Positions 699 to 20,713 of a DNA stretch of 23,337 bases are shown here, piece after piece. The DNA is taken from the IMG/VR virus record IMGVR_UViG_3300031951_001232, positions 1-23,337 of that record. One strand, given 5' to 3'. The DNA is from a virus. The notes below the pieces were generated by a model. That model ran no database searches, was not told the origin of the DNA, and saw only the letters and a program-made list of their open reading frames with translations. Numbering within the stretch: position 1 is the first letter of the stretch; the number at the start of each line of letters is the position of its first letter. The translations under genes were made by a program, and so were the position numbers.

Positions 699-2513
699 AT
701 GGCAAAGACAAAAAAGACTATACAATTAAAAAACTTAGCACAATATGATGTATTAATTGAAGATACATCTGCGTCTTCTACATATTTTCAAGTAACGAAT
801 CTACCACCATCTTTTACTGGTGGTAGAAATTCGTTTTTGTTGGCAGGGTCATCCGCATTAAAATCTGCGTCTAATATTCAAATAGAAATACTAGATGCAG
901 ATGGAATACCTATTTTCCAAAACCCAATACAAAAATATGTACAAGGAAATTCTAGATTAGTTTCCGTCGAAGTTACAGAAAACACAGCTGTTGGGTTTGC
1001 TACTATCATTATATTGGGGCAAGCTACAGCATTACCAAATGGTCAACCAGTACCACCAGATTGGCAAAATTCATATAATGTTCGCTGGACTAAACAAATA
1101 CTAGTAGAGAGAAACTTAAGAAATTCCTCTCCACTTATATTAAGAGATACGCCAACGGTGCTTTCTGAAGAAAATAGATTGTATAGTGTATTAACTTCTT
1201 CGTATACAACAGCAAGTACACCGTTTACAGCAAGTTTGACTCCTACATTATATTCTGGGTTTCAAATTGGATATACAATTAAAGCAGAATCGCCAACAGT
1301 ATTTTCCGAAGATTATGTAGGTGGATATATAACAGGTTCTATGATTATAGACCAGGTAAGTGCAAGTTTGTATTTACCAATAACAGACATATTAAACACC
1401 ACAACTGCATTTAGTACTGGTGAATTAATTAAAACAACAGATGGTCGAATCGTAGACAAAATTTACTTACGAAGTGGTAGTTATACTACATCATTATTTG
1501 GGTCATCATCTGCAATAAAAACCACGGCCCAGTTGGTATATAATACATCAAGTATAAAAGATAATCATATTCCTGTATCGTATGCAAACCTTCGTTTAGT
1601 AAACTTGAATACAGTAAGTGGTGAAATATTTAAATTTAAAGTATATAGTAAAGTTTCTACTAATTTATCTGATTATAAATTGGTAGCAGAAGTACCAATA
1701 ACTACATCTGAGTTATTAGTAACCAGTTCTATTCGTGGTAATTTACCTATTGGCAATTTTTATGTAGTACCCACAGCATCAAATTGGTATTCTGATAGAT
1801 TAGAAACTAGTTCAAATGCGATATATACGATATCTGGGTCTGCTGCTTATTATAACCCAACTGTTACAAGTGTAAATCCGCCAATTACGATGTCTATTAC
1901 TGATAATGTATTATTACGGTCAATCCGTTCAGAAATACCAACATTTAATAATACAAACTATGCTGGATATCTATCGGCGAGTGGATACTTTATAGGAAAT
2001 AAAAAATCGGTACAACTATTCCCAACAACAGAATACACACTTCAGTTTGATGCATTCTATAAAAAAACAGTTGGTGCGGTAAATTTAACTGGTATAGAGT
2101 CAAAGGTTGATATTTATATCGTAGGGGTAGAAGGAACTAAAGTTATTGATAACAATCCTTTAGGACAAAAGATTGGTACATTAACACTACCTGCTGGAGC
2201 AGAAACATATTGGTATCAAGACCAAGAACTTAACTTTACACCACAATTAGCTACCGCTGGAAAAGTGGGTATCCGATTTGCTGTAAGTAACGGGTTTTGG
2301 TACTTTTCTGAAATATCATTAAAACCAGCATCGGATAGATTATTCGCACCAGATGAAGCACAGATTTTGGTACCGAACACTGAATATTTTAATGAATTGT
2401 TACAACATAAAATTGAATTCTTCGATATCAATAGCAATTCAACAGACATAGCTATAGAATCGATACCTACATTCTTCACAGGATCGAATATTGATTTGGG
2501 TACATTACCATGA
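699..2513 (+). CDS. putative virion structural protein, beta-rich, Ser/Thr-rich (604 aa)
   Basis: I do not recognise the family. The product is rich in Ser, Thr, Ile, Val, Tyr and Asn, has almost no Cys and shows no signal peptide. It has many short Thr/Ser runs such as TSSYTTAS (residues about 166-175) and SGSYTTSLFGSSS, the look of a beta-sandwich tail, fibre or head-decoration protein. An FTGGRNSFLLAG stretch lies near the N-terminus. Codon use differs from the capsid genes: ATA/ATT for Ile, AGA for Arg, TTT and AAT dominate, giving a low-GC stretch. The start at 699 follows the gap with the ACTATTTA element; the ribosome site is weak. Its stop overlaps the next start (ATGA), so the two genes are probably co-translated. 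A baseplate or fibre-associated role is inference. Confidence 0.6.
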   Translation: MAKTKKTIQLKNLAQYDVLIEDTSASSTYFQVTNLPPSFTGGRNSFLLAGSSALKSASNIQIEILDADGIPIFQNPIQKYVQGNSRLVSVEVTENTAVGFATIIILGQATALPNGQPVPPDWQNSYNVRWTKQILVERNLRNSSPLILRDTPTVLSEENRLYSVLTSSYTTASTPFTASLTPTLYSGFQIGYTIKAESPTVFSEDYVGGYITGSMIIDQVSASLYLPITDILNTTTAFSTGELIKTTDGRIVDKIYLRSGSYTTSLFGSSSAIKTTAQLVYNTSSIKDNHIPVSYANLRLVNLNTVSGEIFKFKVYSKVSTNLSDYKLVAEVPITTSELLVTSSIRGNLPIGNFYVVPTASNWYSDRLETSSNAIYTISGSAAYYNPTVTSVNPPITMSITDNVLLRSIRSEIPTFNNTNYAGYLSASGYFIGNKKSVQLFPTTEYTLQFDAFYKKTVGAVNLTGIESKVDIYIVGVEGTKVIDNNPLGQKIGTLTLPAGAETYWYQDQELNFTPQLATAGKVGIRFAVSNGFWYFSEISLKPASDRLFAPDEAQILVPNTEYFNELLQHKIEFFDINSNSTDIAIESIPTFFTGSNIDLGTLP

Positions 2514-5398
2514 AGCAATTAACTAAAGAACAACTTAGTTTCTTATTACAGTTTCCAACTGGACATAGACTCCAAGTTGGAGCGTTAAGTTATATCGAAA
2601 AGCACAAAATTCAAGATGTCGATATTTTGTTTGAAGCAACTAAAGCTACACAAAATATTATTGATGTATTTAATAAGAAGTTAGAAGTATTAGACGAAAA
2701 GAAAAGAAAGAAGTGTACCATCTATCCTACTGATTCTGGAAATAAGATTCGTAAAAAGTGTAAACAAGCTCACATTTGGGGTATTCACTATGCCCCAGTA
2801 TGGAATCGATATGTTCAACCAGAACCAACCACACCAGACACGGGTACCGATAGTGGTGATAGTGGGGCTGATGTCGGCGGTGGAGAAGCGGGCGGTGATG
2901 CTGGGGGTGTAGCAGAACGAAAGGGCATTGCTGGGTCACGATTTACATATCCAATGTCTAGTGGACCGGATGATGACTATCAACTAAAAGATGAAGCGAT
3001 GTCTAGCACTGAACGGATGCGTAGATTCAACAAGCGTCATCCAGAAAAGGTACGAAAGTATTTAAAGAAAACACAAGATGATCGTGTAGCTCGTAACCGC
3101 GACCGTCGTAAAGCAGTTGAAAAGCACGGAAAAGCTAAGATGAAGAACCACGATGTACATCATCCAAATGGTGCACAAAATGGTAACTGGAAGTTAGCGA
3201 AAAAAGACCACGGACGAGATAAGAAGAACGAAAATATAGAATATGTGTATTTGTCTGAATTAGCCGAAGGGTTTGTACCAAACGGCAGTTGGACTCTTAT
3301 ATACGAAGGTGGTGCGGCTGGACATATGGCACATCCATACGAAGACGACTCGTTATCATTTGCCGATGTCAAGGATATGGTCACTCGTGGACTTGTTGGA
3401 GACTTGGGAGCAGAAGAACCAGTAACCGAAAAGCTTGATGGTCAAAACATTATGTTTACCGTTAAAGAAGGTCAAGTATTCTTCGCCCGTAACAAGGGAC
3501 AAGTCAAGAACAAAGGACAAAATGCACTTGACGTAGCGGGTATCCGTAATATGTTCGCCGGTCGTGGGGATATCGAAAAGGCATTTACTGGGGCTGCAGA
3601 TGATTTACAAAGTGCAATTGATGCACTTCCAGAAGATGAACGAAATAAGATGTTCGCTGATGGTTCAAAATTTATGAATGTTGAAATAGTATTCCCAGAT
3701 ACTAAGAATGTTATTCCATACGACAAGTCGGTATTAGTGTTTCACGGTACGGTTGAATATGACAATGAAGGTAATGAAATTAAGCGGTCAGTCGAAGATG
3801 GTCGTGAATTGTCTGACCAACTTACCAAAGTGAATGCACAAAAGCAAAAGACATTTGGTATTTCTGGTCCAAAGACAATAAGTTTCAGCGATGCACAGAC
3901 AGTAGAAAATAAAAATGCATTGAAGAAAATCGGTGCACGAATTTCCCAATTACAGAAAGAATATGAATTAGACGATAAATCTACTATTGAAGATTATAAG
4001 ACAAAGTGGTGGGAAGATAAACTTATTCAAATTTCCCAAGAAACTGGTTTGGAATTTACTAAAGAAGAATTTGATGGTATGATTCGTCGATGGTCATTAG
4101 GTGATAAGAAATTTAAAGTTTCTGACATCGAAGACGCAGAAAAGAAAAAGTGGTTCCGTCAATTTGAAGGAAGTGAATTAAAAAGTATGCAACGGGAAGC
4201 TGTTCGTCCCCTAGAAAGTATATTTTTACAAGTTGGCGCGTTATCACTTCGTCGAGTTACAGACTTCTTATCAGCAAATAATCCAGAACTTGCCAAGAAG
4301 TTAAAGGCAGAAGTATTAGATACGATTAAACAAATCCAACAAACGGGCGATGCAAACAAATTAGCTGCGTTACAAATTCAATTAGAACGCTTACAAGATA
4401 TCGGAATGGATAAGATTGTTCCGACCGAAGGTATGGTCTTTATGTATAAGGGTAAGCCATACAAGTTTACTGGGACATTCGCACCGGTCAATCAAATCTT
4501 GGGTACATTGAAGTTCGACAAGGGTAAAGCACAGCTAGTAGATGAACCAGAAGAAACTCCAAAAGAAGAACCAACAACAAAACCAGCGGAAGGTAAGCAA
4601 CGCACTGTCGCAGTATTTACTGGTAGATTCCAACCATTCCACGCTGGTCACTATAGTATCTATAAGTCGATGGTAGACAAGTTTGGTAAGGAAAATGTAT
4701 ATATTGCATCAAGCGACAAGACAGAAGCTGGAAAGTCTCCGTTTAGATTCAATGACAAGAAAGAGATTATGACTCAGATGTTTAATATCCCAGAAGATAT
4801 GGTGGTTCAGGTTAAGAATCCATATGCACCAAAAGAAATTCTTGAAAAACTTCCACCAGAAACCGTTTATGTCACTGCGGTTAGTCAGAAGGATGCGAAA
4901 CGACTAGGTGGTAAGTATTTCAAACCATATGACGCAAAAAGTTCAAAGAAAGGATTCGCTGAACAAGGATACTTTATGGTCGCACCAGAACTGAAGGTTG
5001 ACATTGATGGAAAGAACATCAGTGGAACCCAACTTCGTGCAATATTTGGTAATCCAAACATTACTGATGAAGTCAAGCAAGAAATCTTTGCGAAGGTGTA
5101 TGGTAAGTTCGACCAAGACATTTTTAATAAAATAGTCAAAACAACCACTAAATCGGAAGAAGAATTGAAGATTACCAAACAATTCGCAGAGCCAGAAAAA
5201 GATAAAAAGAAAGTACAAGAACCAAAAGCACCACAGCAAAAGAAAACACCAGTGGGACAACAATCAACTGACCCAGATTTTTATAAGCCAGGCCAAACTT
5301 GGCAAACTGCCGGTGGTAACTTTGGTGGAAAAAATAAGCAAAATCAAGTAAGATATTTTGGGTCGGAAGAAAAAGCTAAAGTATTTGCAACCAAGTGA
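2510..5398 (+). CDS. multidomain protein: HNH-like patch, ligase-like nucleotidyltransferase and NMNAT-like cytidylyltransferase (962 aa)
   Basis: Starts inside the previous stop (ATGA). Residues 1-100 form a basic N-terminal region, then a Gly/Asp-rich linker (about 103-138). Residues 187-235 are very basic and include HDVHHPNG (from H214), reminiscent of HNH nuclease cores. KLDGQN at 308-313 fits motif I (KxDG, nucleotide-accepting lysine K308) of DNA/RNA ligases. VEIVFPD (about 391-397) and TEGMVFMYKGKPYKF (639-653) could be motifs III/IV and V. Residues 699-870 are a cytidylyltransferase-like domain: GRFQPFHAGH (705-714) is the nucleotide-binding HxGH signature of NadM/NMNAT-type enzymes, and ISGTQLR (837-843) the second (ISxTxxR) motif. 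The tail (926-962) carries a KPGQTW module shared with two other proteins here. Cytidylyltransferase genes occur in marine T4-like phages. The NMNAT-like domain is secure; the ligase-like assignment is likely; substrate is unknown. Confidence 0.8.
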   Translation: MKQLTKEQLSFLLQFPTGHRLQVGALSYIEKHKIQDVDILFEATKATQNIIDVFNKKLEVLDEKKRKKCTIYPTDSGNKIRKKCKQAHIWGIHYAPVWNRYVQPEPTTPDTGTDSGDSGADVGGGEAGGDAGGVAERKGIAGSRFTYPMSSGPDDDYQLKDEAMSSTERMRRFNKRHPEKVRKYLKKTQDDRVARNRDRRKAVEKHGKAKMKNHDVHHPNGAQNGNWKLAKKDHGRDKKNENIEYVYLSELAEGFVPNGSWTLIYEGGAAGHMAHPYEDDSLSFADVKDMVTRGLVGDLGAEEPVTEKLDGQNIMFTVKEGQVFFARNKGQVKNKGQNALDVAGIRNMFAGRGDIEKAFTGAADDLQSAIDALPEDERNKMFADGSKFMNVEIVFPDTKNVIPYDKSVLVFHGTVEYDNEGNEIKRSVEDGRELSDQLTKVNAQKQKTFGISGPKTISFSDAQTVENKNALKKIGARISQLQKEYELDDKSTIEDYKTKWWEDKLIQISQETGLEFTKEEFDGMIRRWSLGDKKFKVSDIEDAEKKKWFRQFEGSELKSMQREAVRPLESIFLQVGALSLRRVTDFLSANNPELAKKLKAEVLDTIKQIQQTGDANKLAALQIQLERLQDIGMDKIVPTEGMVFMYKGKPYKFTGTFAPVNQILGTLKFDKGKAQLVDEPEETPKEEPTTKPAEGKQRTVAVFTGRFQPFHAGHYSIYKSMVDKFGKENVYIASSDKTEAGKSPFRFNDKKEIMTQMFNIPEDMVVQVKNPYAPKEILEKLPPETVYVTAVSQKDAKRLGGKYFKPYDAKSSKKGFAEQGYFMVAPELKVDIDGKNISGTQLRAIFGNPNITDEVKQEIFAKVYGKFDQDIFNKIVKTTTKSEEELKITKQFAEPEKDKKKVQEPKAPQQKKTPVGQQSTDPDFYKPGQTWQTAGGNFGGKNKQNQVRYFGSEEKAKVFATK

Positions 5399-5404
5399 GG
5401 TTAT

Positions 5405-6049
5405 ATGTTTAAAAATCAAGATGCACTAAATGATGTTCGTCGTAAAGTAGCAGAAAAATTGAAGAGTGATGACCAACGATTGGTATTTGGTTGGCGAGGT
5501 GAAGCAGAACCCACTCGTAAAGAAGGTGATGTGTGGGAAGATATCAATGGTAAAAAGTGGACTATTAAAAATGGTATTCGTCAAACTGTTACTAAGTTAG
5601 ACGATGCCAAAACACCACATTGGTGTCCAAAGTGCAGTAAGCCAATGAATCATCGGTTTGATATCAAGTTCTGGCGCATCCGAGGTCATTGCTTTGATTG
5701 TAATGTAAAATTTGAAACAGAACTTCGTCGTCAGGGTAAGTGGAAAGACTTCGAACAAAAGATAATGTTGCGTAACTATATATCCGCTGCAAAAGATAGA
5801 CTTCAAGAGTTGCAACATTACCTCACTAACCTAAGTAAACCAGAATATTTGTTAATGAACGAAACTGAAAAAACTGTATTGATGTTTGAAAAATGGGATG
5901 TTGATTTAGACACTGTAAGAAAAGATTTAACGGACGAAATTGAATTGATAACAAAGAATTTAGCAGAAACCATAGAAAAGTACGGAACTGGAGAAGATAA
6001 TGAAACGGAAAACGAAGTCGTTACTGGAACGGACGAAACTAATAGCTGA
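5405..6049 (+). CDS. zinc-ribbon protein with N-terminal KxGDxW module (214 aa)
   Basis: Unknown function. C74PKC77 and C96FDC99 form a four-cysteine zinc ribbon separated by a basic, aromatic loop. Residues 39-57 (KEGDVWEDINGKKW...NG) resemble the C-terminal modules of the 962-aa and 397-aa proteins of this window. The rest is helical and charged, ending in an acidic, Thr-rich tail (from about residue 195). GAGGT at about 5396-5401 supports the start at 5405. I recall similar proteins next to the terminase gene in marine T4-like phages, which would fit a packaging or head role, but this is context only. The last 50 bases overlap the next gene in a different frame. Confidence 0.75.
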   Translation: MFKNQDALNDVRRKVAEKLKSDDQRLVFGWRGEAEPTRKEGDVWEDINGKKWTIKNGIRQTVTKLDDAKTPHWCPKCSKPMNHRFDIKFWRIRGHCFDCNVKFETELRRQGKWKDFEQKIMLRNYISAAKDRLQELQHYLTNLSKPEYLLMNETEKTVLMFEKWDVDLDTVRKDLTDEIELITKNLAETIEKYGTGEDNETENEVVTGTDETNS

Positions 6050-6668
6050 GACTATCACCGCTGTACTACCACTCGCTAAAATTGCATTAGTAGCGGCCGG
6101 TGTCTTAGCATTAGTAATGATGTTCAAGGTCAATAAGACCGAAGATGAGATGGACAAGTATATTGCTGAATACAAGGTATTTCAAGCAAAGGCTGAACAA
6201 GCTACAGAACTTGCTGACAGTTTGTCACAAGAAATTGTTATTGCCGATAATGAAGCTAGAGCGGCAGTCAGTCGAGCACAAGTACTTGGTCGTCAAGTCA
6301 ATTCATTGAAGAATGAAACATTAAGCATGGAAGAGCGAGCAACTGTTATGCAAGAAACACTTCTTGACACATTAGAATTGGCTCGTCAAATCCTACCATT
6401 GAAAGATTCTATTATCGCAAAACAAAAGAAAACGATTGACGCACAAGGTACCCAAGTCACCGAACTTGAAAGTGCATTATCAAGTAAGGACAATGCTTTG
6501 CGTATGGCAATGATGCGTGGGGACAGTCTCCAAGCAGTTATCAATCTCATTCCACCTGCCCCAAAGAATCCTAACCGTATGTTCGGTATTAAGTTACCGA
6601 GTCGAAAGGCATCATTCGCAGTTGGATTAGCAATGGGTCTTGGAGCGAGCATTCTTGTAATCAAGTAG
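6000..6668 (+). CDS. membrane-anchored coiled-coil protein (222 aa)
   Basis: No family recognised. A basic N-terminus is followed by a hydrophobic segment at about residues 20-42 (LPLAKIALVAAGVLALVMMF), then a long heptad-like, Ala/Glu/Gln-rich helical region (about 45-175), a Pro-rich break (IPPAPKNPN) and a second hydrophobic segment at the C-terminus (about 204-222, Gly/Ala-rich). Such N- and C-terminal membrane helices joined by a coiled coil recall spanin-like or envelope-associated phage proteins. No lipobox was seen. The start at 6000 lies 50 bases inside the previous gene, but GGAG at 5990-5993, six bases before the ATG, supports it. The gene ends seven bases before the terminase start. 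Confidence 0.7.
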   Translation: MKRKTKSLLERTKLIAETITAVLPLAKIALVAAGVLALVMMFKVNKTEDEMDKYIAEYKVFQAKAEQATELADSLSQEIVIADNEARAAVSRAQVLGRQVNSLKNETLSMEERATVMQETLLDTLELARQILPLKDSIIAKQKKTIDAQGTQVTELESALSSKDNALRMAMMRGDSLQAVINLIPPAPKNPNRMFGIKLPSRKASFAVGLAMGLGASILVIK

Positions 6669-6675
6669 AGGTTTT

Positions 6676-8265
6676 ATGAACGCAACAGCACAACAGTTAC
6701 GTGACAAAATTAAAGAAGAATTTAAGAAGTGTGCGATAGACCCATCATATTTCTTATCAAGGTATTCGTATATCCAACACCCGATTCGTGGTCGGGTGTT
6801 GTTTGATTTATACCACTACCAAAAAGATGCATTAAAAGATTTTGAAAATCACGATTATAATATTGTTCTCAAAGGTCGTCAGATTGGTATTTCCACATTA
6901 GTAGCAGGATACGCATTGTGGTTAATGTTGTTTCATAAAGATAAGAATATTCTTGTTATCGCAACCAAACAAGAAACTGCAAAGAACTTGGTGACCAAAG
7001 TAAAGTTTATGCATGATAATTTACCTGTATGGTTACGGGGTTCAATTGTTACAAATAACAAACTATCATTACAATTTGCAAACGGTTCTCAGATTAAGGC
7101 AGTAGCATCCAGTCCAGATGCCGGCCGTTCTGAAGCACTGTCACTTCTCATCCTCGACGAAGCCGCGTTTATTGATGCGGCTGATATAATCTGGACCGCA
7201 GCATCCAGTACACTGTCAACTGGTGGAAAGGCAATTCTGTTGTCTACCCCGAATGGCGTCGGTAATTTTTTTCACAAGATGTGGCAGCAAGCAGAAACAA
7301 AAACTAATAATTTTAATCCTATATTATTAGATTGGAAAGTACACCCAGAACGCGACCAAGCATGGCGTGACCGTCAAACGGAATTGATGGGAGAATTACA
7401 GGCAATTCAAGAACATGATGCATCATTCATCTTTTCTGGTAATACGGTTATCCCCGCAGAAATTATAGAGTTTTATAAATCGTCATTTGTCCAAGAACCT
7501 ATATCGAAAGAAGGATTTGATGGTAATCTTTGGGTATGGGAATACCCCAGCCCATCAAAGACATATATTGTTTCCGCTGACGTATCCCGTGGAGATGGTG
7601 AAGACTATTCCACTTTCCATGTAATTGATGTAGAAACATCTACCCAAGTTGCAGAATATAAGGGAAAGGTCGAAACTAAACAGTTTGGAAATATGTTAGT
7701 GTCCATCGCAACCCAATATAATGACGCCCTTCTCATCCCCGATAATAGTAGTATCGGATGGAACGCCATCCAACAGATTATTGATCGTGGATACCGCAAT
7801 CTCTTCTATATGTCTAGAGACTTACAATATGTGGATGTAGAACACCAGTTAAATAGAAAGTATTTAAAAGAAGATAAGATGACATCATTGGTGCCTGGAT
7901 TTATGATTTCTCAACGAACCAGACCACTGATTATCGCTAGATTAAAAGAATATATGTTGGATAATTCGTTTACTATTCGGTCAAGTCGGATGATTGCGGA
8001 ATTGGAGACATTTATCTGGAAGAATGGTAGACCAGAAGCGCTTGGCGGATATAACGATGACTTGGTTCTTGCTCTTTGTATAGGACTTTGGGTACGAGAC
8101 ACAGCCCTCAGATTACGCCAAGAAGGCATAGAATTGACCAAATTAGCGTTAGATAACACCAAATATCAAATGGGTAGTATGGTATACACAAATAAGAATT
8201 TAAATCACAATCCGTATGAGATGCAAATAGGTCAGGAAAAGGAAAATTTACGGTGGTTACTGTAA
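6676..8265 (+). CDS. gp17: terminase large subunit (gp17-like packaging ATPase/nuclease)
   Basis: The motor that drives DNA into the prohead through the portal and cuts the concatemer. The ATPase lobe has a P-loop KGRQIGIST (66-74), Walker B LLILDEA (catalytic E162) and a coupling motif LLSTPNG (188-194). The RNase-H-like nuclease lobe has SADVSRGDGEDYS (D302), LIPDNSS (D356) and NDDLVLA (D461/D462) as candidate metal ligands. At 529 aa it is shorter than T4 gp17 (610 aa). The usual Walker A lysine before Ser is replaced by Ile72, while Lys66 sits at the head of the loop as in lambda gpA. GAGG just before 6676 serves as ribosome site. No small terminase (gp16) is recognised in the window. Confidence 0.96.
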   Translation: MNATAQQLRDKIKEEFKKCAIDPSYFLSRYSYIQHPIRGRVLFDLYHYQKDALKDFENHDYNIVLKGRQIGISTLVAGYALWLMLFHKDKNILVIATKQETAKNLVTKVKFMHDNLPVWLRGSIVTNNKLSLQFANGSQIKAVASSPDAGRSEALSLLILDEAAFIDAADIIWTAASSTLSTGGKAILLSTPNGVGNFFHKMWQQAETKTNNFNPILLDWKVHPERDQAWRDRQTELMGELQAIQEHDASFIFSGNTVIPAEIIEFYKSSFVQEPISKEGFDGNLWVWEYPSPSKTYIVSADVSRGDGEDYSTFHVIDVETSTQVAEYKGKVETKQFGNMLVSIATQYNDALLIPDNSSIGWNAIQQIIDRGYRNLFYMSRDLQYVDVEHQLNRKYLKEDKMTSLVPGFMISQRTRPLIIARLKEYMLDNSFTIRSSRMIAELETFIWKNGRPEALGGYNDDLVLALCIGLWVRDTALRLRQEGIELTKLALDNTKYQMGSMVYTNKNLNHNPYEMQIGQEKENLRWLL

Positions 8266-8317: not shown

Positions 8318-8704
8318 ATGAAGAAAGAAGAACTTAGACAAATGATTCGTGAAGAACTCAAATCTGTTTTAAGTGAACAAGCGTATCAATGGTGGTTGAA
8401 GCCAGCAGAATCAGAAACCGAAGACGCTCACCTAAACCCAAGTCAAGTTCACGAAGAAATATGTGAAGGAGAGGGATGTCTTGACGAAAAGTCTGTTCCA
8501 CAACCATACAATCGTAAAGGCGCTCGTAAAATGACCAGGTCCCAAGTTGAACTTCGTAAAAAGATTGGTCAAGCTATGATGCGGGATGAAAAGAAAGTTA
8601 GTAAGTTCCGTAAAAAGTATGGTGACGAATGGAAAGATTATCTTTGGGCATCCGCTTCTGCCGCAGCATTCAGACAAAGTGGTAGTAAAAAAGACAAAAA
8701 ATAA
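8318..8704 (+). CDS. small basic protein with MKKEELRQMIREEL N-terminus (128 aa)
   Basis: Conserved type of unknown function. I prefer the ATG at 8318 over an in-frame TTG at 8306, because GGGA at 8308-8311 would then serve as ribosome site. The N-terminus (LRQMIREEL) resembles that of the 15850 gene product and may be a prohead-targeting segment with a possible gp21 site after IRE (residue 12). The middle is acidic with two Cys (CEGEGC). The C-terminal half is basic: YNRKGARKMTRSQ, then KFRKKYGDEWKDYLWA, ending in a Lys tail. A 52-base AT-rich gap precedes it, and its stop shares a base with the next start (TAATG). A role inside the head or in DNA binding is inference. Confidence 0.7.
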   Translation: MKKEELRQMIREELKSVLSEQAYQWWLKPAESETEDAHLNPSQVHEEICEGEGCLDEKSVPQPYNRKGARKMTRSQVELRKKIGQAMMRDEKKVSKFRKKYGDEWKDYLWASASAAAFRQSGSKKDKK

Positions 8705-9897
8705 TGAAATATACACAATTTTTTAACTTTGAACAGTATCATCATCCCCATAAAAGACACGACCCGCCTGGGTCAGAAGATGCGGATGTGAATAATGATG
8801 GTAAAGTCGATAAAAACGACAAATATATGATGGCAAAACGAAGATTATATAAACAATATCAGTCAGCACAAAAAAGTAATAAAGAAACAGATTTTTCTAC
8901 ACCGCAGTTGGAGAATGATATGATTAGATTAATGGGATTAGTAGAATTACCATCCATAGTACGACTAAAAGAAGAATCACACGAAGAACCAACACCAGCT
9001 CCAACTGTAGCTGTTGATAAAAAGTCACAAGTTGCAATGAAACTTAAGAAACTTAAGGAAATGCAAATGACTCCAGACCAAGAAAAGAAAGTTGATGAAC
9101 TCTTGGCTCAATACGAAGAATTAACCGCTAAGCAAAAGCAACTTGACGTAGATAAGGACGGAAAGATTGAAGGTGATGACTTAGCAAAACTCCGTGCTGG
9201 TAAGAAGGCTGATGAAAAGCTTGACCCAGTAGGTAAAGAAGATGGTGACATAGATAATGACGGAGATAAAGACTCATCAGACAAGTATTTACAAGCTCGT
9301 CGTGATGCTATTGGTAAGGCAATGAAGAATGAAAACGAAGACCACGAAGTATCAATGGCATCCAAAACCCTCGACTCTATTATCAGACATGCAACTGAAT
9401 TGAAGGGTAAGATTGGAATGGAAGAAAAAGACATTCCAGCATGGATTCAAGACCACATCGCAGTGGCTGAAAACAACCTTGACCAAGCAAATACCAGTTA
9501 TCACGAATATGGTGACGAAGAAAAGACTGATATGCCAGTTGACAAGGACTTAGAAGCTATGAAGGAAACGGTCAACGAAGCAGCTCCAGAAGGTTGGGAA
9601 AAGACTGTTCTCGCTATGAAGAAGCATAAAGAAATTGACAATCCTTGGGCACTCGCACATTGGATGAAGAAGAAGGGATACCAATCACATAAGAAAGAAA
9701 CAGAAGAAGCAGTAACTATACAACCACAAGGTGGATTAGCAGCTGCTATTTCTGCATACAAAAATACACCAACACACAGTTCAAAGCAACATGCCAAAGT
9801 AATACCAGCACACAAGCCAGGTGACACTTGGAAAACTGACAGCGGTAAAACCGCAAAGAAAAATTCAGACGGAACTATCTCTTACACAGTGAATTAA
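8704..9897 (+). CDS. EF-hand/dockerin-type Ca-binding protein with C-terminal KPGDTW module (397 aa)
   Basis: Three 12-residue calcium-type loops are visible: D28-x-N30-x-D32-G...D36...D39, D148-x-D150-x-D152-G...E156...D159, and D182-x-D184-x-D186-G...D190...D193. The first and third are also alike after the loop (DKYMMAKRR and DKYLQARRD), suggesting internal duplication. The last loop position is Asp, as in dockerins, rather than the Glu of classical EF-hands. Residues about 296-330 (GWEKTVLAMKKHKEIDNPWALAHWMKKKGY) form a module I recall from many phage proteins. Residues 371-397 carry KPGDTWKTDSGK, shared with two other products. The N-terminus MKYTQFFNFE resembles T4 internal-protein leaders. 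No membrane segments. A virion-internal, Ca-dependent role is inference. Confidence 0.78.
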   Translation: MKYTQFFNFEQYHHPHKRHDPPGSEDADVNNDGKVDKNDKYMMAKRRLYKQYQSAQKSNKETDFSTPQLENDMIRLMGLVELPSIVRLKEESHEEPTPAPTVAVDKKSQVAMKLKKLKEMQMTPDQEKKVDELLAQYEELTAKQKQLDVDKDGKIEGDDLAKLRAGKKADEKLDPVGKEDGDIDNDGDKDSSDKYLQARRDAIGKAMKNENEDHEVSMASKTLDSIIRHATELKGKIGMEEKDIPAWIQDHIAVAENNLDQANTSYHEYGDEEKTDMPVDKDLEAMKETVNEAAPEGWEKTVLAMKKHKEIDNPWALAHWMKKKGYQSHKKETEEAVTIQPQGGLAAAISAYKNTPTHSSKQHAKVIPAHKPGDTWKTDSGKTAKKNSDGTISYTVN

Positions 9898-9898
9898 T

Positions 9899-10255
9899 AT
9901 GGTAGCCAAATTTATTTCTCTTCTACTTTCGAGTAGACAACAAGCTCACATCTTTCATCTTCAAACTCCTTCCTATGCAGCACACAAAGCATTGCAAGAA
10001 TATTATGAAGGAATTGTCGATTTAGTTGACACTTATGTAGAATCATATCAAGGTCGATATGGTATTCTCAAAGGATATATGCCAACCAATACTATTTTAG
10101 AAGATGACTCAGTAGTTAGTTATTTCGCAGGTTTACAAAAGTTCGTAGACGAAACCCGTGGTCAACTTCCACAAGACGGTGAACTTAATAACACCGTTGA
10201 TGAAATTGCTGGATTAATTTCTAGCACAGTTTATAAACTTAAGTTCTTAAAGTAA
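9899..10255 (+). CDS. minimal Dps/ferritin-like protein (118 aa)
   Basis: An all-helical protein. H17, H29, D44 and E48 have spacings 12, 15 and 4, identical to the ferroxidase-site residues of E. coli Dps (H51, H63, D78, E82). Ungapped alignment also matches the flanking QAH, the A-x-H and the D-x-x-DT-x-x-E contexts. At 118 residues it is much shorter than Dps (about 167) and lacks the long N-terminal extension. Helices C and D would be residues about 66-86 and 96-118. I recall a phage family of unknown function with the same SYAxHxAL...YYxGIVDLVD core. Dps proteins oxidise and store iron and bind DNA; whether this one does is untested. One-base gap after the previous stop. Gene call secure, ferritin-like fold likely. 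Confidence 0.72.
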   Translation: MVAKFISLLLSSRQQAHIFHLQTPSYAAHKALQEYYEGIVDLVDTYVESYQGRYGILKGYMPTNTILEDDSVVSYFAGLQKFVDETRGQLPQDGELNNTVDEIAGLISSTVYKLKFLK

Positions 10256-13026: not shown

Positions 13027-14913
13027 ATGGCAGATACTAGTGTATACGGTCGCCTACGGAAACTGTTTTCCACAAACACAGTTGTCCGAAATGTAGGTGG
13101 AAAGAAGTTAAAAGTCGCTGATACCGACAATATCCAGTCGTTTATTAATAGACGAGGTATTGACCGGTATCATCGTGTGTATTCATCAATGACTGGTGGA
13201 TATGGTGCAGCTGGTGGTCGTTACGAATCAGCTGCAGCATTCCAAGGGTCACGCTTACAATTGTTCCGTGATTATGACATGATGGATAATGACCCGATAA
13301 TTTCATCCGTAATGGACATTTACGCTGATGAATCTACTGTAAAAGACGAATTCGGTCAAGTACTCAGTATCCGCTCCAAGAACCAACAAATTCAAGATAT
13401 TCTCCATAACTTATTCTATGATGTATTGAATGTTGAATTCAATCTCTGGCCGTGGGTCAGAAACATGGCTAAGTATGGGGACTTTTTCTTATTCCTAGAT
13501 ATCGATGAAAAGTACGGTGTCGTGAATGTCATCCCGCTTTCTGTTTACGAAACCATCCGTGTTGAAGGGCAAGACCCAGGCAACCCATTCTCAGTTAAGT
13601 TCAAGATTGAAAATGATTTCTTGGCACTTGGTAAAAAGGAATTCGATAATTATGAAGTAGCACATTTCCGTCTTTTATCTGATACAAACTTCCTTCCATA
13701 CGGTAAAGCTATGATTGAAGGAGGTCGTCGTATCTGGAAACAACTCCAATTGATGGAAGACGCGATGTTAATTCATCGTATCATGCGTGCTCCAGACAAG
13801 CGTAAGATATTAGTTGATGTGGGAAATATTCCACCGGCAGAAATCGATACACATATGCAACGCATCATTGACCGTATGAAGAAAGTGCCACTTGTTGACC
13901 CAAAGACCGGTGACTACAATCTTCGTTATAATATGATGAATATCACGGAAGATTTCTATCTTCCAGTGCGTGGTAAGGATTCTGGAACCGACATTACGAA
14001 TCTTCCAGGCCTTCAATTCAATGCTATCGAAGACATTGAATATCTCCGTAACAAGTTAATGGCAGCATTCAAGGTACCAAAGTCATTCCTTGGGTACGAA
14101 GAAGATAATAGTGGTAAGGCATCGTTAGCAGCACAAGATGTTCGTTTTGCTCGCACCATCGAACGCATTCAACGCATTTTAGTGTCAGAACTTACCAAGA
14201 TTGCAATCATCCACTTATATGTTCAAGGATTTACAGACGAAGACTTAATTGATTTTGAATTAGAAATGACTTCACCATCAGTCATCTACGAACAAGAAAA
14301 GTTGAACTTGTGGAAGGAAAAGGTTGGATTGGCTAAAGATATCGCAGATAGTAAGTTCTTGTCACGTGATTGGATTTACCACAACATTCTTCAAATCGCT
14401 GAAGATGATGCTAAGGCAGAACAAGATAAGATTGTAAAGGATGTTGAGTGGGTTGGTAAGGCAGAAGCAGTACAACAACAAGCCGCACAACCACAACAAG
14501 CACCAGAGGGTCCAGAAGGACAACCAGCAGAACCAGACGCTGGTGTAGAACAACCAACTGAAGAACCTCAACAATTAGCTACGGTAGATGATGTACTAGC
14601 TTCTCTTGAGGATTCCTCAGATGAAGAAGAAACTGGAGATGAAGCTGAATTAGAAGAAGCAAAAATGGGCCGTCCAAAAGTAGGGATGAAATACGGTCAA
14701 GATAGTCATCCACGTGGTCGTGACCCAATTGGACATAAAGAAAATCTTGGAGCTTTGCGAGTAGGACAACAACGTAAACCATCTAGAAAGTCACCATTAT
14801 CTCTTGAAAATTACGAAGTTTCTAATCTTATTAAACAATTAAACGCTCATAAAATCGCACCAGAAACCTCTAGTATATTAAACGAAGATAACATTTTAGA
14901 CATCGAAAACTAA
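13027..14913 (+). CDS. gp20: portal vertex protein gp20-like (628 aa)
   Basis: Forms the dodecameric ring at the head vertex through which DNA is packaged, nucleating the prohead. The N-terminus (VYGRLRKLFSTNTVVRNVGGKKLK) and the core elements DNDPIISSVMDIYADE (88-103), VAHFRLLSDTNFLPYGKAMIEGGRR (211-235), a VDPKTGDY segment and FKVPKSFLGYEED (348-360) are those of marine T4-type portals. It is longer than T4 gp20 (524 aa): from about residue 478 there is a Gln/Pro/Glu-rich linker and acidic stretch, then MGRPKVGMKYGQDSHPRGRDPIGHKENLG (547-575) and a terminal helix. ELEEA at 541-545 matches the gp21 cleavage consensus. GAGGGG just before 13027 gives a strong ribosome site. Confidence 0.95.
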   Translation: MADTSVYGRLRKLFSTNTVVRNVGGKKLKVADTDNIQSFINRRGIDRYHRVYSSMTGGYGAAGGRYESAAAFQGSRLQLFRDYDMMDNDPIISSVMDIYADESTVKDEFGQVLSIRSKNQQIQDILHNLFYDVLNVEFNLWPWVRNMAKYGDFFLFLDIDEKYGVVNVIPLSVYETIRVEGQDPGNPFSVKFKIENDFLALGKKEFDNYEVAHFRLLSDTNFLPYGKAMIEGGRRIWKQLQLMEDAMLIHRIMRAPDKRKILVDVGNIPPAEIDTHMQRIIDRMKKVPLVDPKTGDYNLRYNMMNITEDFYLPVRGKDSGTDITNLPGLQFNAIEDIEYLRNKLMAAFKVPKSFLGYEEDNSGKASLAAQDVRFARTIERIQRILVSELTKIAIIHLYVQGFTDEDLIDFELEMTSPSVIYEQEKLNLWKEKVGLAKDIADSKFLSRDWIYHNILQIAEDDAKAEQDKIVKDVEWVGKAEAVQQQAAQPQQAPEGPEGQPAEPDAGVEQPTEEPQQLATVDDVLASLEDSSDEEETGDEAELEEAKMGRPKVGMKYGQDSHPRGRDPIGHKENLGALRVGQQRKPSRKSPLSLENYEVSNLIKQLNAHKIAPETSSILNEDNILDIEN

Positions 14914-16339: not shown

Positions 16340-16927
16340 ATGAAGAACTTATTAGTCGAATATAATGTAATTGAATACGGAAAAGATTTATTAGCTGAAG
16401 CGGCTGATGTGAGTAAGCCATTAATGTTAAAGAATGTTCTTCTCCAACGGGCTGAAGCAAAGAATCAAAACGGTCGTATTTATCCTCGTGAAATTCTACA
16501 GCGTGAAGCAGGCCTTTACAAAGAAAATTTCGTAACACAACGCCGTGCACTTGGCGAATTAGACCATCCAGAAAGTCCAGTTGTCAACTTAAAGAATGTA
16601 TGTTGTAATGTGACCGAACTTTGGTTTGAAGGTCAAGATGTTCGTGGTAACATTGAAATTCTTTCTACTCCATCTGGTAATATTGTTCGTGAACTTATCA
16701 AGAACAATATTCGTCTTGGTGTTTCATCCCGTGGAATGGGGTCAGTTCGTCAAATGGGCGAAAGTACCGTAGAAGTTCAAGACGATTTTAGTCTCATCTG
16801 CTTCGATATCGTCAGTAACCCAAGTACCCATGGTGCGTTCATCAACGAAAGTAAAAAGGAACAAATCGTTACCCCTTATTCTCGCATCGATTCACTCGTA
16901 TACGATTTCCTTAGTGAAGTAAAATGA
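16340..16927 (+). CDS. gp21: prohead core protease gp21-like (195 aa)
   Basis: Serine protease that degrades the scaffold and trims capsid proteins during head maturation. NQNGRIYPREIL (42-53), ELDHP with catalytic H76, and GVSSRG (127-132) with S129 or S130 as nucleophile are the family landmarks. FDIVSNPSTHGAFI (155-168) follows as in T4-type enzymes. IEYGKDLLAEAA near the N-terminus contains an LAE site (cut after E20) that would suit self-processing. Length is close to T4 gp21 (212 aa). It overlaps the metallopeptidase gene by ATGA. Confidence 0.93.
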   Translation: MKNLLVEYNVIEYGKDLLAEAADVSKPLMLKNVLLQRAEAKNQNGRIYPREILQREAGLYKENFVTQRRALGELDHPESPVVNLKNVCCNVTELWFEGQDVRGNIEILSTPSGNIVRELIKNNIRLGVSSRGMGSVRQMGESTVEVQDDFSLICFDIVSNPSTHGAFINESKKEQIVTPYSRIDSLVYDFLSEVK

Positions 16928-19129: not shown

Positions 19130-20713
19130 ATGTCCGAAGTAAATTCACTCATCAACGAAGCCGGCTCAGCACACAAGGTTATCGTTGAACAATCCCGCCA
19201 ATTGGCAGGAAAGTGGGAAAAGTCAGGCCTTCTTGAAGGCTTGAAGGGAGCAGAAAAGCAAGGTATGGCAGTAATGCTTGAAAACCAAGCTTCACAACTT
19301 CTCCAAGAAAACTCATACACCAACCTCGCAGGCACCAATGGTGAACAATGGGCAGGTGTAGCACTTCCATTAGTCCGTAAGGTCTTCGGAAGTATCGCAG
19401 CAAAGAACTTCGTATCAGTCCAACCAATGAACCTTCCTTCAGGACTTGTGTTCTATATGGACTTCAAGTACGGAACCACTGTAAACGGAAAGACCTCAGG
19501 AACCTCACTCTATGGTAACGCATTAAGTACACCATTTGGTGGTTTCGGTAACACCGATACAGGCGGATTATACGGTGCAGGTCAATTCGCTTACTCAGTA
19601 AACGATGCAACCGTAACCGGTTTAACCACCGCACCAGCATCAGCATCATTCTCAGATGTAAACTTCAACGCAGACTTCGTAGCAACTGGCAGTCTTTCAA
19701 AGTACTCAATCTCAACCAGTTCATTCACCAATCTTGATAAGCTCGCAGTCCGTTCATTTGTTCCATCAGGTTCAGCAATCGACTTCGCAGCATTGGTTCT
19801 TCCAGAATTCACCAAGATTGTTGGTGCAAACGTTGTCTTCATCGTAAATGCAAACGTAGCATCAGGAAACCAAATCAACTCAGTTGCATACAGTAAGCAA
19901 CCAACCGATTCAACTCGTGGTGACTTCGAAGCAACCAGTGATACTGATTTGAACATCCCACAAATCGACTTAGAACTTAAGTCAGAAACAATCGTAGCAA
20001 AGACCCGTAAGTTGAAGGCAGTCTGGTCACCAGAACTTGCACAAGACTTAAACGCTTACCACAGTGTTGATGCAGAAGCTGAATTAACAGCAATGTTAAG
20101 TGATTACATCTCAACCGAAATCGACCTCGAAATCCTTGATATGTTAATCGCAGCTGTACCATCACAAACCACTGAATACTGGTCAGCACAAATTGGTACC
20201 GTATACAACCCAACATCTGGTGCATTCGCAGCATCATCATACACTGGTACTGCATGGACCAATATGACCTGGTTCCAAACACTCGGTCAAAAGATGCAAA
20301 AGGTATCAAACAAGATTCACCAACTCACCATGCGTGGTGGTGCAAACTTCGCAGTATGTTCACCAACCGTTGCAACAATCCTTGAAACCATCCCAGGCTT
20401 CATGGCAAACACCGATGGTGACAAGATGGAATTCGCAGGTGGCGTAACCAAGGTTGGTTCATTCCAAAACCGTTACACCATCTACAAGAACCCATACATG
20501 AAGGAAAACACATTGTTGATGGGCTTCCGTGGAAGTAACTTCCTCGAAACTGGTGCAGTCTACGCACCATATATCCCACTCATCATGACTCCGCTCGTGT
20601 ATGACCCAAACAACTTCACCCCACGCCGTGGTGTGATGACCCGTTACGCAAAGAAGGTTGTACGCCCAGAATTCTTCGGAAAGGTGTACATCGACGGATT
20701 AAACTTAGTCTAA
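19130..20713 (+). CDS. gp23: major capsid protein gp23-like (527 aa)
   Basis: Builds the hexons of the head. Family landmarks are VALPLVRKVFGSIAAKNFVSVQPMN-PSG (about residues 77-105, the T4 VQPMNSPTG site) and the C-terminal YAPYIPLIMTPLVYDPNNFTPRRGVMTRYAKKV. Maturation by gp21 should remove an N-terminal delta peptide. LLQE at residues 57-60, before Asn61, is the best site and close to the T4 position (after residue 65). An earlier INE before Ala11 also fits. Length matches T4 gp23 (521). Codon use is the most biased in the window (ATC, TTC, AAC, ACC), as expected for the most abundant virion protein. An intrinsic terminator follows. Confidence 0.97.
   Translation: MSEVNSLINEAGSAHKVIVEQSRQLAGKWEKSGLLEGLKGAEKQGMAVMLENQASQLLQENSYTNLAGTNGEQWAGVALPLVRKVFGSIAAKNFVSVQPMNLPSGLVFYMDFKYGTTVNGKTSGTSLYGNALSTPFGGFGNTDTGGLYGAGQFAYSVNDATVTGLTTAPASASFSDVNFNADFVATGSLSKYSISTSSFTNLDKLAVRSFVPSGSAIDFAALVLPEFTKIVGANVVFIVNANVASGNQINSVAYSKQPTDSTRGDFEATSDTDLNIPQIDLELKSETIVAKTRKLKAVWSPELAQDLNAYHSVDAEAELTAMLSDYISTEIDLEILDMLIAAVPSQTTEYWSAQIGTVYNPTSGAFAASSYTGTAWTNMTWFQTLGQKMQKVSNKIHQLTMRGGANFAVCSPTVATILETIPGFMANTDGDKMEFAGGVTKVGSFQNRYTIYKNPYMKENTLLMGFRGSNFLETGAVYAPYIPLIMTPLVYDPNNFTPRRGVMTRYAKKVVRPEFFGKVYIDGLNLV

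Follow-up and report, generated by a model that had tools for sequence, protein, structure and literature searches.

The window is the whole stretch of DNA analysed, an entire IMG/VR record of 23,337 bases from a T4-like freshwater phage (recognised by its TerL, portal, protease S77 and Gp23). It contains, in order, an open reading frame (ORF) of 604 aa, a gene encoding a fusion protein of 962 aa, a 214-aa ORF with CxxC pairs, a 222-aa ORF and the terminase gene. The features of the window are as follows.

699 to 2513, plus strand: 604-aa ORF, probably structural, with a similar family upstream in 16 of 103 loci
2510 to 5398, plus strand: 962-aa fusion ORF, taken from the ORF list; its ATG overlaps the upstream stop (ATGA)
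2510 to 2989, plus strand: N-terminal region of the fusion protein (aa 1-160), without a family match
2990 to 3253, plus strand: conserved basic segment (aa 161-248, the "HNH-like patch"), without a Pfam match and present in a subset of the family
3296 to 4525, plus strand: RNA-ligase-like covalent nucleotidyltransferase domain (aa 263-672), placed by alignments and predicted structure
3431 to 3433, plus strand: K308, the motif I lysine (EKLDGQN), invariant
3683 to 3685, plus strand: E392, motif III candidate (MNVEIVFPDTKNVI), invariant in ligase alignment A4
4427 to 4432, plus strand: E640-G641, motif IV (EGMVF), invariant in alignment A4
4463 to 4465, plus strand: K652, the motif V lysine (YKFTG..NQ), invariant in alignment A4
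4595 to 5224, plus strand: HIGH-superfamily NMNAT-like domain (aa 696-905), placed by Pfam, profiles and structure match
4640 to 4651, plus strand: HAGH (HxGH, aa 711-714), by motif reading
5018 to 5038, plus strand: ISGTQLR (ISxTxxR, aa 837-843), by motif reading
5225 to 5395, plus strand: C-terminal tail (aa 906-962), from the ORF translation
5405 to 6049, plus strand: 214-aa ORF with CxxC pairs, zinc-ribbon-like by eye; such a family lies downstream in 50 of 103 loci
6676 to 8265, plus strand: terminase large subunit (phrog_2, 2.2e-50)
13027 to 14913, plus strand: portal protein (phrog_213)
16340 to 16927, plus strand: prohead core protease, Peptidase_S77, by domain match
19130 to 20713, plus strand: major capsid protein Gp23 (T4-like), by domain match

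The fusion gene belongs to the late packaging/head cluster. Its neighbours were counted in 103 loci, the window included, as blast clusters of the ORFs within 6 kb of each gene; contig ends truncate many loci and all of these counts are lower bounds. A TerL-like ORF is located at most 6 kb downstream of the fusion gene in 47 loci. A zincin-like (HExxH-peptidase-like) ORF is found upstream in 29 loci and a zeta-kinase ORF in 5, and a Pol-beta-type nucleotidyltransferase ORF lies nearby in 7. All 44 blast matches of the zincin ORF fall in ORFs carrying HExxH, and the zincin is fused inside the ligase ORF in locus L147 and in the group L019, L020, L021 and L026. An RNA-repair operon was rejected as a description of the neighbourhood, since none was seen in the 103 loci, where the flanking genes are mostly head and packaging genes. 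Elsewhere in the window, a 397-aa ORF (8704-9897) contains several D-x-D-x-D-G-like stretches and matches phrog_4359, phrog_38880 and the start of phrog_764, and the 118-aa ORF that follows (9899-10255) matches phrog_858, a starvation-inducible transcriptional regulator. A motif resembling G-x-x-W-x-x-x-x-G-K seems by eye to recur in the tail of ORF 2510-5398, in ORF 5405-6049 and in the tail of ORF 8704-9897.

The motifs KLDGQN, MNVEIVFPDTKNVI, EGMVF, YKFTG, HAGH and ISGT start at residues 308, 389, 640, 651, 711 and 837 of the 962-aa ORF, respectively. A first-pass annotation had described this ORF as joining a ligase-like nucleotidyltransferase to an NMNAT-like domain, and the description is borne out by the motifs, by a PF01467 match over the cut-off and by a predicted RNA-ligase fold. 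Its assignment of KLDGQN to motif I agrees with residue 308, a lysine that is invariant in the relatives, and its candidate motifs III to V correspond to an invariant E, EG and K in alignment A4. The HxGH plus ISxTxxR domain that it regarded as complete is present, with HAGH at residues 711-714 and ISGTQLR at 837-843. Its HNH-like basic patch is a real conserved segment, with 49 matches to aa 161-248 that all fall within ORFs of the fusion family, but the segment has no Pfam match, HNH included, at E ≤ 1, and the reading as an HNH nuclease was rejected.

Pfam and NCBIfam leave aa 263-672 of the window protein uncovered, and phmmer and profile searches of the ligase part against the PDB returned nothing useful; the ligase fold was identified via structure prediction. 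Two ligase alignments of 32 and 44 diverse rows were used, with residue 48 of A4 equivalent to K308. The E-K-x-D-G of motif I, the Arg that follows it, the motif III Glu, a later Arg, the motif IV E-G and the motif V Lys are exceptionless in both. The patterns of motifs I (EKxDG), III, IV (EGxxF) and V were detected in 103, 98, 103 and 102 of the 103 complete ORFs, respectively; the search patterns partly preselected KxDG and motif V, whereas motifs III and IV were free of such selection. An AlphaFold2 model built from the 44 rows (mean pLDDT 89.8, pTM 0.85) places a ligase fold around K308, as expected from the first-pass annotation, and contains a long helical stretch separating the motif III region from motif IV.

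Comparison of this model with the PDB by Foldseek gave RNA ligases as all of the best 12 matches, with a top E of 3.4e-3 and no match reaching E ≤ 0.001. VIA-align places only RNA or tRNA ligases in its 20 best rows (Z 8.6-9.1). By themselves these scores are modest, as unmatched models typically reach 7-8, but they are read as meaningful because the matched rows form one superfamily and the motifs agree. The RNA ligase of Naegleria comes first, at Z 9.1 with an rmsd of 4.0-4.1 over 186-188 residues (4.0 over 186 for 6vt3), and Trl1, T4 Rnl1 and T4 Rnl2 score 9.0, 9.0 and 7.9, respectively. The viral DNA ligase 6imn scores 6.8, other DNA ligases score about 5.3-5.9 and capping enzymes 5.4-5.5. 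The modelling thus provides strong evidence that the first catalytic module has a predicted RNA-ligase fold, nearer to RNA ligases than to DNA ligases or capping enzymes.

The window protein itself has no match to Pfam RNA_ligase (PF09414) and does not reach its gathering cut-off. Matches below the cut-off were obtained for 5 of 11 members (best E 0.0038), for 4 of 58 further ORFs (best E 0.00036) and within the ligase ORF of two further records. Since fold and motifs agree and PF09414 is only weakly matched, the domain is called an RNA-ligase-like covalent nucleotidyltransferase and not a PF09414 member. It shares with T4 RNA ligase 1, Naegleria Rnl and the Trl1 ligase domain the nucleotidyltransferase fold, the KxDG lysine and the order of motifs III-V, but differs from them in staying under the PF09414 cut-off, in the helical stretch between motifs III and IV and in its fusion to a HIGH domain.

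The second module is a HIGH-superfamily adenylyltransferase closest to NMNAT/NadM. Pfam CTP_transf_like (PF01467) matches aa 702-844 with 31.4 bits against a cut-off of 21, and phrog_395 "cytidyltransferase" spans aa 691-905. NCBIfam NadM/NMNAT models match far below their equivalog cut-offs (33 bits against 449), and on these values simple NadM was rejected as a family call. A HIGH profile of 20 rows finds the M. jannaschii NMNAT at 5.7e-8. A model of both domains (pLDDT 72.3) has a pTM of 0.41, at which the interdomain placement is unreadable; its HIGH part matches F. tularensis NadM (2r5w) at Z 11.4, M. jannaschii NMNAT (1f9a) at 10.5 and PPATs at about 10. A divergent HIGH group, A7, is joined to the first group by hhalign with a probability of 96.8, and its profile finds PPAT/NMNAT in the PDB. 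The window protein resembles NadM and archaeal NMNAT (2r5w, 1f9a) in GRFQPFHxGH, ISGTxxR, fold and Z (10.5-11.4), but it falls below the NadM equivalog cut-off, has no Nudix domain and is fused to the ligase-like domain. Only the family name points to the CDP-like product that had been suggested as one option, the closest structures being NMNAT/NadM and PPAT.

Both HIGH motifs are intact in the window protein (HAGH, ISGTQLR), whereas the first varies among the relatives. The HxGH position reads HxGH in 57 of 96 readable ORFs, TxGH in 4, TxAH in 6, xxHH in 28 and QRGH in 1, the last His being required by the reading pattern and hence constant by construction. This His is also invariant in HIGH alignments A6 and A7. 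The first His is replaced by Gly or Ala in the 28 ORFs with xxHH, and on the ligase tree the first residue switched between its states (H, T or other) no fewer than 12 times. Neither of the outcomes that would have contradicted the first-pass annotation was observed: the model has the ligase fold, and the homologues keep the second His of HxGH as well as K308, which is invariant.

Relatives were gathered mostly with the ligase domain alone and otherwise with the whole protein, and no ligase-only query contained the HIGH domain. Two viral scans gave at least 593 and at least 562 confirmed relatives, from each of which the best 80 loci were used and not a random sample. The domain is present over more than 330 aa in 188 of 190 ligase ORFs; reduction to 90% identity left 126, of which 103 were complete. 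The HIGH domain is located in the same ORF in 97 of the 103 by HMM, with 58 ligase-first and 39 HIGH-first, and in two more (L136 and L162) it is missed by HMM and seen by eye, which brings the total to 99. The same fusion thus occurs in other phages, in both orders. In L030 and L181 the HIGH domain sits in a nearby gene instead, and L161 and L163 have no HIGH domain within the stretches examined. That the ligase-like and HIGH fusion in ORF 2510-5398 is real and beyond chance is confirmed by the retention of the motifs across the 103 relatives and by the recurrence of a HIGH domain that was absent from the ligase-only queries.

The two domains are shown to be kept together across divergent phages, and the recurrence of the pair in many uncultured aquatic phages suggests that it may serve a real phage function. 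On a ligase-domain tree of 102 rows, 98 of them with an order (L003 was excluded for an internal deletion), the order changed at least 2 times against 30.9 in shuffles, a comparison in which only the minimum switch count is informative because near-copies cluster the order labels. Domain order was rejected as a clue to a fixed interface, as both orders exist. Linkers and inserts between the domains vary widely, and the pairing is therefore read as functional and not as a fixed interface. A tight form of the hand-over of a product to the ligase-like domain, which the first-pass annotation had suggested as one option, appears to be opposed by the two orders, the very different linkers and inserts and the separate genes. 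In the loci with separate genes, a protein with a C-terminal HIGH domain (L181 5561-7330, L030 7247-9217) lies near a stand-alone ligase-like gene. The L181-type protein is like the fusions in this C-terminal domain and carries an N-terminal KEKLNGTG and a sub-threshold RNA_ligase match, but its N-terminal part is undetected by the ligase profiles of the fusion family.

Extra domains were sought by Pfam scan in 39 members, namely 38 ligase ORFs and the neighbouring gene of L030. The scan detected zeta/AAA_33 kinase in 6, PolyA_pol in 2, PGDYG in 2, and HD, Nudix, M78 peptidase and ParB_N in 1 each. In 58 further ORFs the matches are mainly to CTP_transf_like (31) and RNA_ligase (4). A CCA-adding-type PolyA_pol and an RNA-binding part are found in the same chain in L024 (ORF 1073-5248) and L111 (ORF 829-6555); the HD domain is that of L024 and the Nudix domain that of L069. 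CCA-adding, HD and kinase modules are familiar from RNA-end repair, and their presence in relatives, though in a minority, is the reason for favouring RNA-end repair. In the fusion ORFs of L013, L015, L022 and L026, a repeat of about 45 aa (R-[VI]-x-N-P-x-T-G-R ... Y-x-x-x-H-P) was noticed by eye between or after the domains.

The family combines at least two disparate enzyme domains in a gene beside late virion genes, as is used to define polyvalent proteins. In the part of Iyer et al. 2017 (PMC5512222) covered here, polyvalent proteins are alike in having several unrelated enzyme domains per chain, late-gene neighbours and a link to HExxH peptidases, but the ligase plus HIGH pair is not named. 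The portions seen of PMC9503650, PMC7824862 and PMC5512222 describe NadM, NadR, RNA ligases and polyvalent proteins without a ligase plus HIGH fusion, and no description of such a fusion was recognised in the surveyed part of the open-licence PMC literature. Both folds are already known, and the ligase-like family is absent from the Pfam and NCBIfam models searched.

Across 50,697 phage records, Microcystis phage Mel-JY01, LR756508 and LR756500 were the only ones in which the ligase domain was detected. Mel-JY01 is a named, host-linked phage carrying the family; its homologue is WWT39297.1, and it offers a target for bench work. Prevotella Lak phages and PA5oct were rejected as relatives, as their tblastn matches fall mainly in the HIGH part. 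A Foldseek search of BFVD gave matches to uncultured-phage proteins called "cytidyltransferase-like" (TMq 0.91), and a weaker one to A0A0M6VVW4 of S-PM2 (E 3.3e-6, TMq 0.45). A 591-aa ORF of S-PM2 (LN828717), taken as A0A0M6VVW4 on equal length, carries Pfam DUF6267 at aa 5-398 and CTP_transf_like at 414-554. S-PM2 was rejected as a clean fusion because an older record splits the DUF6267 match into two pieces in two annotated features; in that record the HIGH match lies within a 437-aa open frame. A tblastn search with the S-PM2 protein matched 522 records, 201 of which cover at least 80% of it at one place.

In P-HM1, S-H9-2, S-RIM14 and S-P4, the DUF6267-type gene overlaps the next gene, a cytidyltransferase gene, by 4 to 14 bases, and in P-HM1 this downstream gene is T4-GC 190. 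The stretches of S-CRM01, MA01 and S-CAM7 have no cytidyltransferase gene after the DUF6267-type gene. In the part of Sullivan et al. 2010 (PMC3037559) covered here, T4-GC190 is listed among the core proteins of cyanophages and among the virion proteins identified by experiment. The virion of S-CREM2 contains a cytidylyltransferase according to the portion seen of PMC10665884, and no adjacent gene annotated as DUF6267 or ligase was found in the 5-kb stretch covered. In DUF6267, KxDG, EG and K motifs follow one another as they do in the ligase-like domain. The two families compare weakly by hhalign (probability 5.9, E 0.0064), DUF6267 (PF19782) has no Pfam match to the window protein at E ≤ 1, and profile A8 finds nothing in S-PM2. 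It is possible that DUF6267 and the ligase-like domain belong to one family, the good structural match standing against the weak profile comparison. The gene pair of DUF6267 (T4-GC 71) and T4-GC190 may be a distant parallel to the fusion; it is like it in motif order and in a HIGH domain that follows or is fused, but it usually consists of separate genes, which lie among replication genes in the S-PM2 stretch.

A late-expressed, probably virion-associated RNA-end enzyme with a fused adenylyltransferase is regarded as the best explanation, a tentative one to which a little less than an even chance is given. K308 would take AMP from ATP and pass it to the 5'-phosphate of a broken RNA, after which the break would be sealed. 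The simplest client would be a tRNA, of the host or of the phage, that a defence nuclease has cut. Less firmly, the HIGH domain might make NAD+ from NMN and ATP near the repair site, and this NAD+ might restore what host NADases had removed or end clean-up had used. In the manner of polyvalent proteins, the protein may be packaged and reach the cell together with the DNA. Besides fold, motifs and pairing, the late cluster and the possible cyanophage parallel, with T4-GC190 reported in virions, speak for the explanation as a whole. Both RNA repair and the synthesis of NAD are to be taken as putative activities of the fusion protein.

The variable HxGH, the few NadV genes, the few tRNAs and the presence of other ligases count against this mechanism, as do the modest structural scores, the PF09414 shortfall and neighbours that are mostly head and packaging genes. 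Of the two relatives scanned for tRNAs, Mel-JY01 has one and a 145-kb contig (which has a tmRNA) none; phage-encoded tRNAs are therefore no obvious client, and a phage tRNA array was rejected in that role. The tmRNA of the 145-kb contig G001 (L226 2782-3122, minus strand; Rfam RF00023, 128 bits) has the tag GNYNLALAA. Two huge phages hold other RNA ligases above the PF09414 cut-off, and the fusion is therefore not their sole ligase. NadV (PF04095), which usually accompanies NadM in phages, was found in 1 of 13 records of relatives, many of which are possibly fragments, the window record being itself a 23-kb fragment.

Plain NAD salvage or a counter-NADase role, in which a NadM-like domain is part of a late multi-domain protein and the ligase-like domain is an independent co-packaged repair module, is considered unlikely. 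The intact HIGH motifs of the window protein and the Nudix domain of L069 would suit it, and the extra unrelated domains of relatives fit polyvalent proteins as described in part of PMC5512222. It is opposed by xxHH in 28 of 96 relatives and by NadV in only 1 of the 13 records; in the part of PMC9503650 covered, every phage with NadM also has NadV. The ligase partner is moreover near-constant and the other domains variable, in a set that was collected by the ligase part and leaves HIGH domains without a ligase uncounted. Quite improbable is a role in virion morphogenesis or structure, with one or both enzyme folds serving as nucleotide- or DNA-binding scaffolds, for example in the packaging motor or neck. 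The gene lies near TerL, and T4-GC190 is counted among virion structural proteins in the portion of PMC3037559 seen, but all four ligase motif patterns are kept in 98 of 103 ORFs and the extra enzymatic domains of relatives are variable.

A cofactor-coupled RNA end modifier is judged equally improbable. The HIGH domain would make an NAD-like dinucleotide or join NMN to an A end that bears a 5'-triphosphate; its product would be attached or used by the ligase-like domain, either as NAD-type capping or as an NAD-fuelled ligase with NMN recycling. Two adenylyl-transfer modules in near-constant pairing and in either order, a HIGH domain nearest to NMN-using enzymes with little NadV, and the membership of capping enzymes in the ligase superfamily are all consistent with such an enzyme. 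However, the structure is nearer to RNA ligases (Z about 9) than to capping enzymes (5.5), no domain of the NAD-binding Ia type was recognised, and a fixed channel is at odds with the permuted order and the separate genes. Broader and very doubtful is the proposal that the pair represents one ancient and widely distributed phage system by which RNA 5' ends are chemically finished. In it, the HIGH domain would make or transfer an NMN/NAD-type adenylyl group that the RNA-ligase-like domain installs or uses, phage or host RNAs would be repaired or capped and become defence-resistant at the start of infection, and cyanophage DUF6267/T4-GC190 would represent a two-gene, virion-packaged version of this system.

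A widespread group of aquatic phages thus carries an RNA-ligase-like domain that the libraries searched do not name, almost always joined to an NMNAT-like domain. If active, the fusion would unite RNA repair and NAD metabolism in a single enzyme, and it might give a testable role to the "cytidyltransferase" core protein of marine cyanophages (T4-GC190, as presented in part of PMC3037559). A ligase-HIGH fusion was also observed in a bacterial chromosome contig, the 2.85-Mb CP070664.1 (L114) labelled as a WOR-3 bacterium.
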